Below, in pieces: positions 1-8,081 of a stretch of 64,000 nucleotides of DNA. This DNA is from an uncultured Lachnospiraceae bacterium (GTDB taxonomy: Bacteria; Bacillota; Clostridia; Lachnospirales; Lachnospiraceae), in assembly GCA_949948735.1 (NCBI GenBank), contig CATLGV010000016.1:1-64000 (forward strand), written 5' to 3'. The notes under the pieces are model-generated. The model was not told the origin of the DNA. It did not search any database and saw nothing but the letters and a program-made list of their open reading frames with translations. Numbering within the stretch: the stretch's first letter is position 1; each line of letters begins with the position of its first letter. A program made the translations under genes and the position numbers.

Positions 1-81
1 CCCGTAGAAGTTGACGGGCAGAAAATTCAACGACTTACTATCCATTACAAGTTCATAGGGGCACTGGAAACCCTTGAATAA
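1..81 (+). CDS. C-terminal end of a large serine recombinase (partial)
   Basis: Frame 1 is open from the window edge to TAA at 79-81 and gives 26 residues: PVEVDGQKIQRLTIHYKF then IGALETLE. A closing block of the type (V/I)QR(L/V)xIHYxFIG is characteristic of the C-terminus of large serine recombinases of the Tn4451/TnpX and DUF4368 kind, which catalyse integration and excision of transposons and conjugative elements in Clostridia. The catalytic resolvase domain lies outside the window. In such elements the recombinase gene often sits at one end, reading towards the junction with host DNA. That fits here, because the sequence right after the stop is a gene fragment lacking a start. With only 26 residues the call rests on the motif and the context. 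Confidence 0.7.
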   Translation, partial: PVEVDGQKIQRLTIHYKFIGALETLE

Positions 82-1023
82 TGGATATTTTCTAAGTCAC
101 CTATTCCAACTATCCAACAGACGCTGGACAAAAGGGATGCCATTGAGCTTTGCTTTATTCTGGGGCTGTCGCTGGAGGATGCGGATTCTTTTGTCGCGCT
201 TGTCTCGGAGGAGGGGCTGCATTGGCGGAGCCCGGACGAGCTTGTATATATATTTGCATTAAAGCAGGGATTGGATTATGCCGGGGCCCGGGCGTTGGAG
301 CAGGAGCTGCGGGAATACCTTTTGGATATAAGCCCATCCACGATGCCTGCGGCGGACAGCTTTACGCCGGTGATTCGCGCGGAGGTTTCCTCGCTGGGGA
401 CAAGGGAAGAGCTGAAGGATTATCTGCGGGATGCGGCATCAAGGCTGGGGACATATCACAACAATGCGTACAGGCTTTTTATGGATATGCTGGAGACTCT
501 GGAACACCCTGTGGTTGATGAAGCTGAGGAAAGGGCAGCAATTTTTGCACCGGAAAAATTAACGCTTCAGGACATTGTTCGGGAATATTTTTATGAGGAC
601 AGTGTACTGCGTGCCCATGGGAAGGCACATGACGGAGAGGATAAGAGAAAGCTGCTTTCGCCGGAGCAGCAGCAGGTGCTTTCCGTTATTCAGAAAAACG
701 TAAGCGAGGGATGGCCGGATGAGGCGGTATTGGCAAAAATGAAATCACGGGATACGGATGTGACAAGAAAAACGTTAATTTTGTTGTTTCTTGCGACAGA
801 TCCCGGCCCGGAGGAGGATATGGAGGCGGAGCCCTCAAGGGAGGAGCTCTTTGAAGAACTGTACCAGCGTCTGAATGACATGCTGATGCAGTGCGGGTTT
901 ATGACCCTGGATCCCCGCTCTCCCTTTGACTGGCTGGTGTTGTATTGTATCTGTGTGGAGGATGTGCTGGACGTGGATGTACATATGAGAGCTGTTTTTC
1001 AGGAGATGTTTGGTGAGAGATAG
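82..1023 (+). pseudogene. 5'-truncated gene upstream of the kinase-NACHT gene; function unknown
   Basis: Frame 1 stays open from just after the recombinase stop to TAG at 1021-1023 (313 codons). No ATG or GTG lies in the first 190 bases, only a TTG at 271 without a ribosome binding site. From about 121 the translation looks like native protein (TLDKRDAIELCFILGLSLED...), reminiscent of the helical region after an HTH in XRE-like Lachnospiraceae proteins, though no HTH is left. The rest is acidic and helical and ends in a hydrophobic stretch (DWLVLYCICVEDVLDVDV) near residues 290-308. I infer that a mobile element inserted between about 85 and 125 and removed the 5' part. The gene ends 5 bp before the kinase-NACHT gene, so the two were probably co-transcribed. 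An internal start making a shortened protein cannot be excluded. Confidence 0.65.
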
Positions 1024-1028
1024 AAAAA

Positions 1029-4010
1029 ATGGATGATAGAAGGAAGCTTGAGCAGGGGACAGGGCTTGATTTTCCGGGAATGGTATGCAGAATCGATTCC
1101 TTTCTGGGAAAAGGCTCAAACGCGATTGTTTACACAGGCTCATATCCGGACGCACAGCTTCCCGAACTGAGACACAGGGTGCTCATTAAGGAGCTGTTTC
1201 CGTTTGATGCTCAAGGGCGAATCTACCGTGATTCGGAGGGAAATATATGCTGTGCGGCGGATGCTGAGCCGATGCTGGCGCTTCACCGCCTCAGCTTTCA
1301 ACGGGGGAATGAGGTTCATCTGAAGCTGCTGGAGACTTATCCCGAGGGTATCGACGCCAATATTAATACGTTTTCGTTGAATGGGACGCTATATTCTGTT
1401 CTTGGCTTTTCGGGCGGAAGAAGCCTTGCCGGGGAATTGGCGAACGCAAAAGCCGGACAGGCTCCACTGACAGGGCATGTATGCAGGCTTACCGGAGTAT
1501 TGAATGTATTGGAGGCCTTTCACCGGTCCGGTTTTCTGCATTTGGACATCAGTCCGGACAATATTCTTCTGATTGGGGAGGGGGATAAAGAGCGGATTTC
1601 TCTGATCGATTATAACAGTGTGCATTCGCTTACGGAAATCCGGCAGGGGGAAGCGGTTTATTACAGTGCCAAGGAAGGATTTACGGCGCCGGAGGTGCGT
1701 TTGGGACAGATTGAGACTGTCGGATATCCGGCGGATTTGTACGCCGTAACGGCCGTGTTTTATTATCTGCTCATGGGGAGGCGGCTGTCTGTGCTGGAGA
1801 CCGTTCGCGGACAGATACCGGATGTTTCGGGGGCTTTCTGTCTTGCGGGGATGCCCGATACCGTATGCGGTATGGTAAGGCAGATTTTAAGGCGGGGACT
1901 TGCATCCCTGCCGCGGCGCAGGTACCAGACGGCGGAGCAGATGCGGGAGGATATGGAGGAGCTTCGGGACCGGATTGAAGGGAAGGGTATCACTCACGCG
2001 GCTCTGTGGGAGACCGGCAGACGCAATATTCTTCGGGTAATCCGTGACAATCCTGCATTTCAATATGTCAGGGAGCGTGAGAAGATCTATCCGGTCATAG
2101 CGGAAACAAGTCAGAAAGAGGCGCTTGTTCTGGAGGAGCTGGTGAACAGATTGTTGTCTCCAAAAGGCACTTCAACGCTTCTTTTGGGAGGCGGCGGGGC
2201 AGGGAAGACGACGGCGCTGATGCGGGCGGCGTATTTGCAGCCGCAGGAATACAGCGGGACTTATCCGGCATTCACTTATTTGCCGTTATATGGATGGTCG
2301 GAGGGAAGACATACCTATATAAAAGACATGATTTTGGAAAGCCTGCGGTTTAAGCCGGATACGGAAAGCATGGAAATGGCAAGACATGAGCTGCTCAAGC
2401 TGTTGTCTGCTCCGATACAGACCCGTATGGGAGAGCGCCCACGGCTGGTTATTCTTTTGGACGGGCTGAATGAGGCCTCCGGAGATATCGGGATGCTTTT
2501 ACGGGAAATTGCGGAGCTGTCAGGGTTACGGGGGGTTCGTATTCTTGTGACAAGCAGAAGCGATATCGGAGAGCTCTCTTTTCAAAAAATGACGCTGAGG
2601 CCGTTGGAGCGGGAGGAGGTTCGCAAAATCCTCGGAGAGAACGGCGTACTGGCGCCGGAACAGGAAGCTTTGTTGGAGCTGCTTCGCTCGCCGATGATGC
2701 TTTCCATATATATCAGAGCGGTGTTAGAACGGGAGAAGCAGCTTTTTATTCAGTCCAGAGAGGAGCTGCTGAATAATTATTTCGCGGCAATTCTGGATAA
2801 GGAAATCAGGGAGCTGCCGGAGGCTTCCGGTGAACGCTGGCAGACGGAGGCGGCGCTGTTTTATGTATTGCCGGAGCTGGCAAGGCTTATTCACATAAAA
2901 GGACATGCGTTATCGGATAAAGAGCTGCTGCCGGTTTTGGAAAGCTGCTATCGACGCTTGCGAAAAAGGATGATACTTCGGGTGTTTCCGGAGTGGATTG
3001 GGCATCTTGGAGAGATTCGAGGAGCGGCGGCAGATGCGGAGGCGTGGTATGGGATAATGGTGCATCGGACACTCTGGAGAAGACTTGGCCTGATTGTTCG
3101 GGACGAACAGGGGAGATACCGCGTTGCACATCAGCTGTTTGAGGAATATCTGGTAGCGCTGCAAAGACGTTTTGGCGGAAAAATTATTCGCTGCGAGAGC
3201 GTCCGAATTTCGTTGATGGCGATATGCTGCGCGGCATGTGCCGTTGCGGCGTATCAAAGCATATATATTCCATATTTCAGTGTGGGACAGGAAGAAAAAA
3301 GACCGCAATACGATATAACTGCTTCAAGAGACGTTTTGGACGCCGCGTTTTCCGCGTATATCGTCTGTGCGGAGCAGTACGGGCGCTTTGTGGAGTTGAC
3401 AGACCTGATGGCAGAAGACGCATACGACAAAGACACGTATGACAGAGCCGTGTATAGCTGCCGTAAGGCGTTGGAAAGCACAGGGGCGATAAAAGCTTCT
3501 CAGGCGGAGAATTATTTGCAAAGACTGCATCGATTTGGAGAGGTTATGCCGTGGTCAAAGCAGCCGCTTGAGGAAGAGGCGTATCTGGAATTGATTGCGC
3601 TGCCGGAGAAGCGGGCGCAGGAGTATACGAATTATTTAAATATTTTGCTCAGAGCAGCGGAGGATGAAGACGCATGGTGTTTCTTTGACGGGGAGGACTA
3701 TGTTGAGAAGCTGACCCTGCTGCTGGAGGCGGATGCCCTGCTGCTTGGGAAATATTACAGCATGGTGGCGGCGCCGGAGCTTGCGGCGATGGAGCAGAGC
3801 TCCTCCGAAGAGGAGCGGCAAAGCTATCGCCTTTATATGAAGACCTATGCAATGGTACCCGGACAGAATCAGAAGACAAAGGAGGCGGTGGACGATGTTG
3901 AGGTTTATCGAGGAAACAGAAATGCTGCGCTGCGGGCGCTTTCCGGAAACGGATTGGTTACATATTTTGCTATTTCGGAGGAAACGGAGCAGGGTTATGA
4001 GGGAGAGTAA
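1029..4010 (+). CDS. Protein kinase-NACHT NTPase with transmembrane segment (STAND-type fusion)
   Basis: 993 aa. Residues about 20-315 form a Hanks-type kinase fold: glycine loop LGKGSNAIVY (26-35), candidate ATP lysine K54, catalytic loop HLDISPDN (171-178; D173, N178), DYN in place of DFG (194-196) and an APE motif (220-222). Residues about 380-720 carry a NACHT NTPase: Walker A GGGGAGKTT (387-395), Walker B VILLDGLNE (474-482), and a TSR motif (508-510). A hydrophobic segment at about 726-746 looks like a membrane span. It is followed by about 245 helical residues that would lie outside the cell if the ATPase is inside. NACHT proteins are oligomerising STAND switches used in immunity and signalling; joining one to an N-terminal kinase and an outside tail is unusual. 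The stop overlaps the lipoprotein start by 14 bp, implying coupled expression. Catalytic activity and the trigger are unknown. Confidence 0.85.
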   Translation: MDDRRKLEQGTGLDFPGMVCRIDSFLGKGSNAIVYTGSYPDAQLPELRHRVLIKELFPFDAQGRIYRDSEGNICCAADAEPMLALHRLSFQRGNEVHLKLLETYPEGIDANINTFSLNGTLYSVLGFSGGRSLAGELANAKAGQAPLTGHVCRLTGVLNVLEAFHRSGFLHLDISPDNILLIGEGDKERISLIDYNSVHSLTEIRQGEAVYYSAKEGFTAPEVRLGQIETVGYPADLYAVTAVFYYLLMGRRLSVLETVRGQIPDVSGAFCLAGMPDTVCGMVRQILRRGLASLPRRRYQTAEQMREDMEELRDRIEGKGITHAALWETGRRNILRVIRDNPAFQYVREREKIYPVIAETSQKEALVLEELVNRLLSPKGTSTLLLGGGGAGKTTALMRAAYLQPQEYSGTYPAFTYLPLYGWSEGRHTYIKDMILESLRFKPDTESMEMARHELLKLLSAPIQTRMGERPRLVILLDGLNEASGDIGMLLREIAELSGLRGVRILVTSRSDIGELSFQKMTLRPLEREEVRKILGENGVLAPEQEALLELLRSPMMLSIYIRAVLEREKQLFIQSREELLNNYFAAILDKEIRELPEASGERWQTEAALFYVLPELARLIHIKGHALSDKELLPVLESCYRRLRKRMILRVFPEWIGHLGEIRGAAADAEAWYGIMVHRTLWRRLGLIVRDEQGRYRVAHQLFEEYLVALQRRFGGKIIRCESVRISLMAICCAACAVAAYQSIYIPYFSVGQEEKRPQYDITASRDVLDAAFSAYIVCAEQYGRFVELTDLMAEDAYDKDTYDRAVYSCRKALESTGAIKASQAENYLQRLHRFGEVMPWSKQPLEEEAYLELIALPEKRAQEYTNYLNILLRAAEDEDAWCFFDGEDYVEKLTLLLEADALLLGKYYSMVAAPELAAMEQSSSEEERQSYRLYMKTYAMVPGQNQKTKEAVDDVEVYRGNRNAALRALSGNGLVTYFAISEETEQGYEGE

Positions 4011-5241
4011 ATTTATTAAAGATGCGGCAATATTGATGACGGCGGTGTTTCTGGCCTTGCAGGCAGCAGGCTGCGGCGCGGTGCAGGAGGCCTCCGAAGC
4101 TGTGGAAGAGACCGCCGGGGAGGCTTCAGGAGAGGCTTCCGCGGATATTTCCATGGATATATCCATGGCGTCGGAGCATCTGCTGACCGTATGGTATGAT
4201 TATCTGAAGGTACTGGATAAAATGTACGCCAGCCAGATATGGGCGTTGGATTATGTGGCGGATTATCTGGAGAGCGGCGACTGGAATGACCTTACGAAGG
4301 CGAGAACGGCATGCATCGCGTCAAGCAGGTATCTGACGGAGCTTTCTATGACGGAGGAGGATTTGACGGAGGAGGAGTATCGCCTGCTGGCCGATGCCGG
4401 GATTGATACCGGATATCAGACCATCACCTTTCAGTCCGTCGAGGGGGCTTTGGAGGAGGCACACAGGATTATCAGGGAACGGATGCTGGAGGGGCTTGAG
4501 AGCGAGGTGTTTGACAAAAATATGGTAGAGCTTCTGCGCAAAGAAGCGGCCGTGCGGCAGGAGTATATTTCCTGTATGTGCCGGTACACCGCGAATCAGA
4601 CCAACTACCTTTTTGTGACGCTTGAGGAAGCGGTGGATTCAGAAGCGGCGTGGACTTATGTGCAGGAGGCATATCCGGCGTTGTTTGAGGAGTATGGGGA
4701 ATGGATAGAGAGTGAAGCACAGCTGAAGGCGCTGGCAGACGCGTGTCTTGATGAATATGAGGATATTGTCCTGAAGCAGGCTGAACTGGTATCCATGCTG
4801 GAAGCGGATCTGTATCGAATGACGCAGATTATCCGGAATAACGACATAGAGGCTTTGCTGGAGGCAGCTTATCCGATGGAAAACCTGCCGGATTTGCTGC
4901 CGATGCCAGTCTGGTATAACCCCATGCAGACGGGGTACCTGAGCTTTACCTCGGCGCAGGACGGCAGTGTTGCCTATCCTGAGTCAGGGGACGAATTGGC
5001 AGATGTGATATATTCTATGTACATACAGGCTGAAAATGTGAGTGTGGAGGATATAACCACTTATCTGGCGTATGTGCAGAATGACGCGGAGCATGTCTGG
5101 AAGGCGCAGGAGGGCGATATATGGTACATTAAGATGCCCTCGTATAATGTGAGTATTGAGTGGGCAGAAAATACCGCGACAATACTCTTTAATGGAGCGG
5201 ATGTGACCTTTGCTCCCGACTGGTACATAGGATTGCAATAG
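3997..5241 (+). CDS. Lipoprotein of unknown function, partner of the kinase-NACHT protein
   Basis: 414 aa. The ATG at 3997 follows a purine-rich GGAGCAGGG and overlaps the end of the kinase-NACHT gene, so it is preferred over longer in-frame starts. The N-terminus is a lipoprotein signal: charged MRESKFIK, hydrophobic core, then lipobox LQAAGC with the acylated cysteine near residue 22. A short A/E/S-rich linker follows, then a mostly helical, acidic domain, with a C-terminal part richer in aromatic and beta-type residues. I recognise no family. Being anchored on the outer face of the membrane, it is placed to contact the outside tail of the kinase-NACHT protein encoded just upstream. That interaction is inferred only from gene overlap and topology. 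Confidence 0.8.
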   Translation: MRESKFIKDAAILMTAVFLALQAAGCGAVQEASEAVEETAGEASGEASADISMDISMASEHLLTVWYDYLKVLDKMYASQIWALDYVADYLESGDWNDLTKARTACIASSRYLTELSMTEEDLTEEEYRLLADAGIDTGYQTITFQSVEGALEEAHRIIRERMLEGLESEVFDKNMVELLRKEAAVRQEYISCMCRYTANQTNYLFVTLEEAVDSEAAWTYVQEAYPALFEEYGEWIESEAQLKALADACLDEYEDIVLKQAELVSMLEADLYRMTQIIRNNDIEALLEAAYPMENLPDLLPMPVWYNPMQTGYLSFTSAQDGSVAYPESGDELADVIYSMYIQAENVSVEDITTYLAYVQNDAEHVWKAQEGDIWYIKMPSYNVSIEWAENTATILFNGADVTFAPDWYIGLQ

Positions 5242-5254
5242 GAGGAATGGATGG

Positions 5255-7939
5255 ATGCTGGAAAAAGAATTGTTGTCCTTTGGTTCCGGAATACTGGCCT
5301 CTGTTTTTGCTAATGTGCTGGGAGACGGCGGGGAAAAGGCTGCCAGCGGCAGGAAAAAAAAGAAGCTGGAGCAGGATATACTTGATGATCTGGATTCCCG
5401 TGTAAGGGACTGTATGGTGCAGGAGCATGTACAAAGCTGGATATTTGAGCAGGAATATCACATCAAGCAGGCAGGCTGTATTTTTGGGGAGGAGGATAAA
5501 CAGCGCATTGTGGAAGCGTTTTTCCGGAAGCATCCGGAAATCAAAGCTGTTTACGGCAGCGAGACAGAGGCGGTCCTGTCGGGCTGTATGGACAGGATGA
5601 ACGACTGGGCAAACAGCATTTTGGATGAAGAGAGCAAGCTGATGCTGGCGGTCATAAGGAAGGACGGACTAAAGCGTGAAAATAATATCATTACGCAGAT
5701 AGATACCGGAAACAGGGAGCTTTTAAAGAGTATTCAGGAGCTTCAGGAGAAAAGCACCGCGGCACAGCCCGCAGCCGTGAGCGTCAGGGAAAAGAGGGAT
5801 GCCCGTGCAAGAGCGGCATATTATGACGAAATACAAAATCTGTACCGGATTCAAAATTACTGGATACGGACGAAGGGCGGTTGTTTTGTTGCGGAGCAGA
5901 GGTCGGGGATAATCCGGACCAGAGCGCTGGTGATTCCGGTTTGCCCGGAGACGGATGAGCTGTCTGTGGAGGATATCGGGGAGCTGTTGGAAATACTGGG
6001 CAGGGAGGGCGCTGCATATCAGTACATTCACATTGTGACAAACGGCGTTGTCGGTAAAACGTATGAGAAATTGTTTTCACCGTATGCGGATAAGATAGAA
6101 ATTTACAATGAGCGGGATATCATCCATGGCATAATGGATTTTACGGGATATTTGAACGATACGATTAACCAGTATAAAAGCAGCAGCCTGTATGAACACT
6201 ATATTGAAGTTTTGGATACGAATACGGGAGCGTCTCTGGAGGACAGCGCGCGGGCATTTTTGCAGGAGGAGGAGTATAACGCCTTTTTGATACTGGGAGA
6301 CTACGGCTGTGGAAAGACCTCCTTTCTGCTCAACTTCGCCTGTCGGCTGGCGGAGGAATACTGTCAGGAGGAAAACGGATACATTCCGCTTTTTATACCG
6401 CTAAAGGAATATGCCAAGGCTGTTAGCATGGAGAATCTGCTAATGGATCTCTTTGTGAACAAGTGCCAAATGGCCGGCGTCAGCATGGAGGCGTTTAAGC
6501 TGATGCTGAGGTATATGAAGTTTGTTTTATTGTTTGACGGCTTCGACGAGGTTGCCAAGCGGGTAAATTATGATGTAAAATTCGATATTTTTAACCAAAT
6601 ATGTCAATTCTGCGGTGAAAACACAAAAATAATTATCACCTGCAGGCCCAATTATTTTCAGGAAAACAGAGAGTATAAAAGGCTGATGGAGAACGCGCAT
6701 CTGCAGTTTGAGCCGAATGTAGAGAACAAGGCGTCGTTTTATGAGACCTATATTGCGGATTTGACGCCGGAGCAGATTCATCAGTACATCCTGTCGTATG
6801 AGCCGCTATTGAAAAAAGAGGAGGTAGATGTGTATGAGATGGAGGAATTAATCGCCCAGACACACGACCTGACGGACTTATCGCGACGACCGTTCCTGTT
6901 GAGTATTATTGTAAAGACGCTGCCGAAAATCATTTCCAATCTGGATGGGAAGCGCAGGGAGGATATAACAATAAACGCGGCGGAGCTGTATCGCAACTAT
7001 ACGGAGCTGTGGCTGGACAGGGAGAACGCAAAGGGAAAAGCCCTGATTCGAAAGGAGGACAAGCTGCAGTTCTGTATGCATATTGCCTACAAGATGTTTC
7101 GGGACGATATTCTGTCCATACATTTCTCGGACATGCCTGATGAGATTCGGGAGTACTTTCCCGATTTGCATCAGATGGATGAGATTGATTACTTCAGCCA
7201 TGATATTCAAAGCTGTTCTTTTATGAACTCGGAGGGGGATGGGAACTTTAAGTTTATCCACAAGTCGTTCATGGAGTATTTTGTCGCCTGCTTTATTGTC
7301 GGAAAGCTGCGCAAGGATGCCGCAGCGGGAGAAAACACGGCCTGTGAAGTGCTGTCAGGCCGGGACGTATCAACAGAAATCGCTTTGTTTATCAATGATA
7401 TATTATGTGGAGATACCGAATTGTACCAGAAGGTCATTGATATTCTGGAGGAGCAGGCTAATGCCGGGGAGGATATGCTTCGCCAGAATGCGATGACAAT
7501 CCTGTCCAAGATGCAATACGATATTGCGGAAAACATAGAGGATGGGGAATCCTATGCACGCAGTGATTTCAGCTATTCCACCATCGCAGACAGAATCATA
7601 TGCGGCGTGAACTTTTCGGGAGCGACCTTTTACAATGCCACTATAGAAGATGTGCAGTTTATCAAGTGTTGCTTTGACGGCGCCAATTTTCAAAAGGCCA
7701 GCCTGAAAAACGTCAATTTCTCCTATCAGTCCCTGGAATACGCGAATTTATCCTACAGTGTGGTGACACACTGCGACTTTACGCAAAGTATTTTGACAGG
7801 AGCGAAAATGTCCTATGCCCGTCTGCACGGAAATGATTTTATGCAGTGCGATATGTCGGAGACGGAGACGGACGGAATAAGATATAAGAATAATCACAAT
7901 TGTCGTACGGTAATAGGCGCTCCTTATGAGATGCGGTAG
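5255..7939 (+). CDS. NACHT NTPase with possible nuclease-like domain and pentapeptide repeats
   Basis: 894 aa. AGGAGG at 5240-5245 sits about 9 bp before the ATG. Residues 1-170 are helical. Residues about 185-300 resemble the Mrr-like restriction-endonuclease fold in pattern (strand, helix, strand VTNG, then IEIYNERDII), but the usual QxK is replaced by RxR (RTRALVIPV, 221-229), so nuclease activity is doubtful. The NACHT core has Walker A GDYGCGKTS (348-356), Walker B VLLFDGFDE (424-432) and sensor-like TCRPN (462-466). From about 775 to 868 there are pentapeptide repeats of the A(N/D)(L/F)xx type (FSGATF, FDGANF, YANLSY, LTGAKM), which form a right-handed beta helix. Bacterial NACHT proteins with variable sensor and effector ends are known anti-phage proteins. 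It follows the lipoprotein gene by 13 bp and so probably belongs to the same operon. Confidence 0.82.
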   Translation: MLEKELLSFGSGILASVFANVLGDGGEKAASGRKKKKLEQDILDDLDSRVRDCMVQEHVQSWIFEQEYHIKQAGCIFGEEDKQRIVEAFFRKHPEIKAVYGSETEAVLSGCMDRMNDWANSILDEESKLMLAVIRKDGLKRENNIITQIDTGNRELLKSIQELQEKSTAAQPAAVSVREKRDARARAAYYDEIQNLYRIQNYWIRTKGGCFVAEQRSGIIRTRALVIPVCPETDELSVEDIGELLEILGREGAAYQYIHIVTNGVVGKTYEKLFSPYADKIEIYNERDIIHGIMDFTGYLNDTINQYKSSSLYEHYIEVLDTNTGASLEDSARAFLQEEEYNAFLILGDYGCGKTSFLLNFACRLAEEYCQEENGYIPLFIPLKEYAKAVSMENLLMDLFVNKCQMAGVSMEAFKLMLRYMKFVLLFDGFDEVAKRVNYDVKFDIFNQICQFCGENTKIIITCRPNYFQENREYKRLMENAHLQFEPNVENKASFYETYIADLTPEQIHQYILSYEPLLKKEEVDVYEMEELIAQTHDLTDLSRRPFLLSIIVKTLPKIISNLDGKRREDITINAAELYRNYTELWLDRENAKGKALIRKEDKLQFCMHIAYKMFRDDILSIHFSDMPDEIREYFPDLHQMDEIDYFSHDIQSCSFMNSEGDGNFKFIHKSFMEYFVACFIVGKLRKDAAAGENTACEVLSGRDVSTEIALFINDILCGDTELYQKVIDILEEQANAGEDMLRQNAMTILSKMQYDIAENIEDGESYARSDFSYSTIADRIICGVNFSGATFYNATIEDVQFIKCCFDGANFQKASLKNVNFSYQSLEYANLSYSVVTHCDFTQSILTGAKMSYARLHGNDFMQCDMSETETDGIRYKNNHNCRTVIGAPYEMR

Positions 7940-7968
7940 AGCGGTCTGGTGTGATAATGAAGAAAAGG

Positions 7969-7998
7969 TTGCGTAGATTATAAGGAGTGCGGTATACT
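7969..7998 (+). promoter_or_regulatory. Candidate sigma-A promoter for the glycosyltransferase pair
   Basis: TTGCGT at 7969-7974 and TATACT at 7993-7998 are separated by 18 bp, just after the NACHT gene stops. Transcription would start near 8005, about 75 bases before the next gene. This suggests the glycan genes to the right are a separate unit from the NACHT cluster. Confidence 0.55.
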
Positions 7999-8081
7999 AT
8001 TTTAATGAGCAGCGCATCTGGCGGATGGACGCGCTTTGATACTATGTGAATAAACAGTATTTTGCAGGCGGGGGATTAGCG

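Follow-up and report, generated by a model that had tools for sequence, protein, structure and literature searches.

A conserved gene set of a predicted membrane-crossing kinase-NACHT protein, a lipoprotein and a helical partner in Lachnospiraceae, a candidate transmembrane phospho-signalling module

What kind of system is encoded where a kinase-NACHT protein that appears to cross the membrane, a lipoprotein and a second NACHT protein stand side by side? The locus that raises this question opens a contig of an uncultured Lachnospiraceae bacterium (GenBank assembly GCA_949948735.1, contig CATLGV010000016.1, positions 1 to 64,000 of the forward strand; this whole stretch of 64,000 nucleotides is called the window), and the source genome is a draft, 84% complete and in 68 contigs. 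Four open reading frames (ORFs), designated A, B, C and D, span 115-7939, all of them recovered on the plus strand (Table 1), in line with the four tightly packed co-directional genes of a preliminary description of this DNA. Comparison with other genomes revealed that A, B and C are found together much more often than chance would allow and form, in some gut clostridia, a real conserved set, which we interpret, with moderate confidence, as a three-component transmembrane phospho-signalling module running from C through B to A.

Three genomes of the same genus have close B relatives, 62-64% identical over nearly their full length, and in three further same-genus genomes relatives of the kinase domain were located whose open frame is shorter. 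All six displayed the order A, B and lipoprotein-like C; with the source genome counted in, 7 of the 38 genomes of this genus show the set. Across the family, relatives of A were detected in 29 of 397 genomes (13 at E ≤ 1e-60), and all of A, B and C in at least 6 of the 397, with part of the 29 A-bearing genomes inspected. Scanning of contigs with A yielded 26 loci, including the six of the same genus, and 20 further regions were added; 45 of these 46 fetched A loci were examined, with L108 dropped as a copy of L058, and several pairs of labels denote the same locus (L043 and L035, L044 and L033, L051 and L034, L060 and L036, L062 and L037, L068 and L038). A kinase was the immediate neighbour of A in 40 of the 45 loci, versus 6 kinases among 330 other ORFs; the exceptions were L065 and L122, with the kinase 385 and 119 bp from A, respectively, L113, where C lies in between, L112, where the next kinase is 4 kb off, and L124, which has no kinase. 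No other gene accompanies the kinase as constantly as A, a relation that the preliminary description had missed.

In 26 loci C stands as a gene of its own, and in L052 it is fused to B; in the kinase tree of 38 rows, all 27 C-bearing loci belong to a single group of 28 rows (support 93/96), in which L056 is the sole row without C. The neighbourhood search proposed in the preliminary description has thus returned C together with 27 of the 28 B proteins of this group. No C was detected in the 10 rows outside it, among which are six soluble STAND-type or similar long forms, as well as L114, L115, L117 and L118, short kinases with a transmembrane (TM) segment beside A; as these four carry a TM segment and have no detected C, the lipoprotein belongs to a single branch of membrane kinases and not to all of them. 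The tree leaves out L063, L067, L112, L124, L048 and L106, which are broken, are truncated where a contig ends or lack a kinase close by; it also leaves out L122, whose kinase match is split in two and below the script cut-off; the long branches of L116, L119 and L123 are uncertain.

Table 1. Coordinates of the four genes, the domains of B and the adjoining mobile-element end in the window (aa, residues).
Feature	Position	Strand	Remark
Mobile-element right end	1..124	+	Last 26 serine-recombinase codons (1-78), stop, about 43 bp
Gene A, 3′ part from about codon 85	115..1023	+	Predicted cytoplasmic, all-helical
Gene B, 993 aa, kinase-NACHT-TM-ectodomain	1029..4010	+	
B kinase domain, aa 1-317	1029..1979	+	K54, D173, N178, D194 present
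B NACHT region, about aa 355-699	2091..3125	+	Walker A aa 387, Walker B aa 474
B transmembrane segment, residues 727-745	3207..3263	+	Positive-inside
B all-helical ectodomain, about aa 748-993	3270..4007	+	Predicted model
Gene C, predicted lipoprotein (Cys26)	3997..5241	+	14-nt overlap with B
Gene D, 894 aa, NACHT-pentapeptide, hydrophobic N-terminal segment	5255..7939	+	Accessory neighbour, not core

The B protein, whose domain borders were read off a predicted structure model, matched the Pfam Pkinase model with 38.8 bits, above the cut-off, and the NACHT model with 25.8 bits, just under the cut-off of 26.7 (by 0.9 bit). In an alignment of 27 family members, which omits L052, L062, L114, L115, L117 and L118, NACHT was matched at E ≤ 1e-3 in 19 (best 3.6e-12), and all 23 NACHT-bearing proteins carried the GK[ST] of Walker A and the acidic motif of Walker B, with L054 lacking the first Gly of the strict Walker A pattern; in L052, outside that alignment, a strict P-loop was not seen. 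The catalytic Lys, the HRD-type Asp, the Asn and the DFG-type Asp of the kinase were kept in 27 of 27. By its catalytic residues, B is classed as a Hanks-type (eukaryotic-like) Ser/Thr kinase with predicted activity; B, by the family matches and Walker motifs, and D, by its Pfam match, are predicted NACHT/STAND NTPases. An excess of Lys and Arg on the N side of the hydrophobic segment was determined in 26 of 27 members, the sole miss being L110, where the script chose a wrong stretch and the real TM segment lies at 370. The Pfam matches, Walker motifs and positive-inside bias bear out the earlier proposal of a kinase-NACHT fusion with a predicted membrane crossing. Structure comparison of B (VIA-align) was dominated by kinase matches and covers the kinase fold alone.

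The C protein of the window has a signal peptide with a lipobox-type Cys at residue 26 and is a predicted lipoprotein. Its relatives form two families, C1 and C2, which are distant homologues (hhalign probability 96.2%); the lipobox Cys was aligned in 13 of 13 C2 proteins, with a non-canonical context in L109, and was read in 10 of 12 C1 proteins, L047 and L050 being without it. The overlap of the two genes, the lipobox and the genetic tie across loci agree with the lipoprotein overlapping B that had been described. The B-C fusion of L052 (1336 aa) comprises a kinase (1-317), a NACHT region (326-735) and a C-like part (897-1327). Homology between the B ectodomain and C was considered and rejected (hhalign probability 1.7%), and a joint alignment of the L052 ectodomain and C part with homologues was dropped, as it placed B ectodomains on the C region. 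A partnership of C and B is argued for by the lipobox, the topology prediction, the co-occurrence and the fusion taken together.

The NACHT domain proved less constant than its neighbours. The 38 tree rows comprise 23 with NACHT, 9 short forms and 6 long forms without that NACHT, and laying these labels on the tree requires four gains or losses, the order of which the tree leaves unsettled. In L060, L062, L068 and L110 the NACHT is missing while the TM segment, ectodomain, A and C are kept; in L056 its lack may be a sequence or frame artefact. Because these four loci retain the other parts, the NACHT of this family seems to be layered onto a receptor kinase instead of forming its core, and the earlier placing of NACHT at the centre of the system is not supported.

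Gene A itself is incomplete in the window. Its frame is open from 82, homology to full-length relatives begins only at 115 and runs to 1023, and this part is 63% identical to residues 85-390 of the L035 relative. With a full-length relative, two matches were obtained in the source genome: its residues 85-390 fall on window 115-1023 and its residues 1-90 on contig C9, where the 5′ part (∼85 codons) lies near the contig end (125444-125713 of 125827). Window positions 1-124 recur identically at the start of another contig (G000:C21) and in an IMG/VR locus (L156, 4082-4205), and the three copies diverge at base 125 into different flanks. The recombinase ORF of L156 bears Resolvase, Recombinase, Zn_ribbon_recom and DUF4368 domains; past the junction, L156 has an ORF for an apparent type IA topoisomerase. 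When the genome was searched with window 1-1023, the element end turned up at the start of C16 and of C21 and nowhere else, no element body was recovered, and the recombinase end had zero matches in phage or plasmid records. Since the two parts of A are on C9 and C16, and a recombinase end common to different flanks marks the break, a serine-recombinase element has most likely inserted within A, and hence an intact A is probably absent from the source genome. The truncated first gene of the preliminary description is thereby explained, as far as the draft shows. Whether the locus is here a decaying remnant, in which A is inactivated and a recent insertion is the only reason that B, C and D are still there, we consider evenly balanced: the split A with the recombinase end at its break argues for it, whereas the frames of B, C and D are intact, the conserved motifs of B are kept, the element might excise, and the break rests on contig ends because the genome is a fragmented draft.

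The A protein is predicted to be cytoplasmic, with a putative helix-turn-helix (HTH)-like N-terminal domain, which would make it a candidate DNA-binding regulator of the XRE/Cro type, and a helical C-terminal domain. Where the two domains meet, one Thr is invariant (T168 in the L043 relative; alignment omitting L063, L065, L123 and L124). The fold of A had zero Foldseek matches at E ≤ 0.001, and neither A nor C gave a convincing match in a PDB sequence search. Other Clostridia have proteins of ∼145 aa that match the N-terminal domain of A and stand next to kinases, for the most part divergent (L136-L143, L154, L155). At two other loci a kinase, a PP2C phosphatase and an A relative stand in a row (L145, 1505-5569; L146, 965-5097), possibly a minimal kinase-phosphatase-substrate set.

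On the reading of A-B-C as a signalling module, lipoprotein C on the outer face of the membrane would work with the helical ectodomain of B, through a putative contact and for a putative ligand, and the signal would pass across the single TM helix of B. The NACHT between kinase and TM segment may gate or cluster the kinase in most members, a role suggested by NACHT biology, and some B lineages would do without it. The Hanks-type kinase of B, if active as predicted, would phosphorylate A, and phosphorylated A may alter gene expression or another output; in the source genome this chain is probably broken at A, and D would be an occasional add-on NACHT protein. The outside-to-inside design had been proposed before, and the topology, the lipobox, the co-occurrence of the three genes and the B-C fusion support it, with the signalling steps themselves conjectural. 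A bolder version, rather unlikely in our view, sees an NLR-type NACHT built into a transmembrane receptor kinase, in which the lipoprotein would trigger NACHT clustering, the kinase would phosphorylate the hinge Thr of an HTH regulator, and the NACHT would have been gained or lost several times.

An alternative is that the set is a sensor of envelope or surface-glycan stress, doing a job like that of PASTA kinases with different parts, and that A regulates surface genes. This we regard as possible, if somewhat improbable. The lipoprotein and ectodomain face the wall, and beyond D the window is largely occupied by a large, mostly surface-glycan biosynthesis cluster (8046-62712; among 35 window proteins, 7 with Glycos_transf_2, and also Bac_transf, Wzt_C and LytR_CpsA_psr). 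However, the other ABC loci inspected are mostly not near glycan genes, and neither PASTA nor a known glycan-binding domain occurs among the Pfam matches of window B or C; PASTA models were absent for B at E ≤ 1 in the window protein and at E ≤ 1e-3 in the 27 members (14 families). The C9 flank of A also reads like glycan genes, and an apparently broken ABC set with split ORFs stands beside apparent glycan genes at L063 (8001-11196).

Gene D scored 39.3 bits with the NACHT model and 53.5 bits with pentapeptide repeats, exceeding the cut-off in both cases, which agrees with the domains described earlier. When the ORFs of all 46 A loci fetched were searched with D by blastp, the only match was in L045 (60% identity, 99% coverage), directly upstream of A and after Wadjet genes, in the row JetB, JetC, JetD, D, A, B, C (36-8001); D was consequently rejected as a core part, and the two-NACHT system of the preliminary description is not supported, a close D standing beside ABC at two loci only and on different sides. 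No D was detected in 396 other family genomes (E ≤ 1e-40) or in 390 other genomes of the class (E ≤ 1e-30, a sample overlapping that of the family), and the other 37 same-genus genomes gave weak matches at best, in 5 of them (best E 2.8e-10). D had zero matches in phages and distant NACHT relatives on 36 plasmid records (21-28% identity among six listed). Absent at these cut-offs from the family and class samples and from the other fetched A loci, D is a rare companion, and its link to ABC looks real and rests on two loci, of which L045 is not an independent sample, since it was located through A. It is conceivable, and in our judgement somewhat against the odds, that D is an independent gene landed behind C by chance: the solitary match among the A loci and the weak same-genus matches favour this, but the single close relative again directly adjoins ABC, on its other side, and the family and class samples hold none.

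Could the set nevertheless serve defence? The neighbour scan covered 130 of 203 listed proteins, the list of 203 being drawn up without those of >1100 aa and without loci L108, L063, L067, L121 and L124, and gave the best 25 of 54 PADLOC and the best 25 of 129 Pfam families. The matches listed (PADLOC, E ≤ 1e-10) were few, and most were single members of systems (JetC, JetD, DpdF, PsyrT and others), the only placeable known system being Wadjet at L045; as a control, the 35 window proteins, from one contig, gave 3 PADLOC matches. Placement in defence islands as a rule is thus unsupported within the matches listed, for which no enrichment statistic was computed, and the earlier defence link is not backed by the neighbours. 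For most neighbours of ABC the gene names are a reading of their sequences: TerD genes, a VWA protein and an apparent P-type ATPase lie around ABC at L050 (3624-16892), genes reading like kinase-VWA-PP2C stand beside it at L051, apparent leuCD at L068, and L057 and L058 share one common chromosomal setting. Close to ABC on its 3′ side, a small XRE-like ORF of opposite orientation recurs at L044 (9058-9381), L051 (13905-14228), L047 (9495-9884), L064 (7352-7711) and L068 (14056-14391), and may be just a common family. Relatives of A had zero matches in plasmids or phages, and none was confirmed in viral contigs by two peptide patterns. B had no full-length match to a known anti-phage protein in PADLOC or NCBIfam; among 25 of its 30 PADLOC matches, all lay in or around the kinase part (PD-T4-6, MkoA, mad6), its NCBIfam scores were far under the cut-offs, and A and C had zero matches to known anti-phage systems in either. 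An anti-phage or anti-plasmid NLR-type system, in which C, the B ectodomain or the NACHT senses infection, the NACHT assembles and the kinase, perhaps with D, brings about dormancy or death, is unlikely: NACHT in both B and D, the sole close D relative beside ABC and JetBCD, and the TerD and kinase-VWA-PP2C neighbours speak for it, but against it stand the mostly single-member matches and the control, the searches of plasmids, phages and viral contigs that found no A relative, the B lineages without NACHT and the common setting of L057 and L058.

Known systems share parts with ABC as preferred here, a signalling module. Compared with PASTA-type receptor Ser/Thr kinases (StkP, PknB, Stk1), B has no detected PASTA and in most members a NACHT before the TM segment, and ABC has a separate lipoprotein and the dedicated partner A. 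Bacterial NACHT/STAND immune proteins (bNACHT, Avs) have the NACHT with Walker motifs in common with B; unlike them, B is membrane-anchored after the NACHT and has an active-looking kinase, and a link to defence was not seen. Soluble kinase-NB-ARC-TPR proteins (kinase-STAND-TPR) adjoin A relatives in L147 and L151, where, unlike in ABC, TM segment and lipoprotein C were not found; close to the L037 set, a further kinase-NB-ARC protein matches the FxSxx_TPR model with a low score. Kinase-VWA-PP2C sets of the Ter type are known, and L051 reads like such a set, while L145 and L146 share kinase, PP2C and A. Passages of one paper describe actinobacterial GAP1-N2 conflict systems with sets of kinase, PP2C and VWA and mention neither A nor C (PMC7159879); few inspected ABC loci have VWA or PP2C.

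The individual domains are known, and the combination, receptor-kinase signalling with a built-in NACHT, was not found in the literature searched: no kinase-NACHT-TM protein with a lipoprotein was recognised there, including the passages of PMC8195603, PMC13236601 and PMC10907252 that were covered, with subscription papers outside that scope and an earlier description possible. The ABC set joins envelope receptor kinases with NACHT switches known from immunity, two subjects usually treated apart, and it is not rare. The natural forms of one receptor with and without NACHT offer a direct test of what the NACHT contributes to the kinase.
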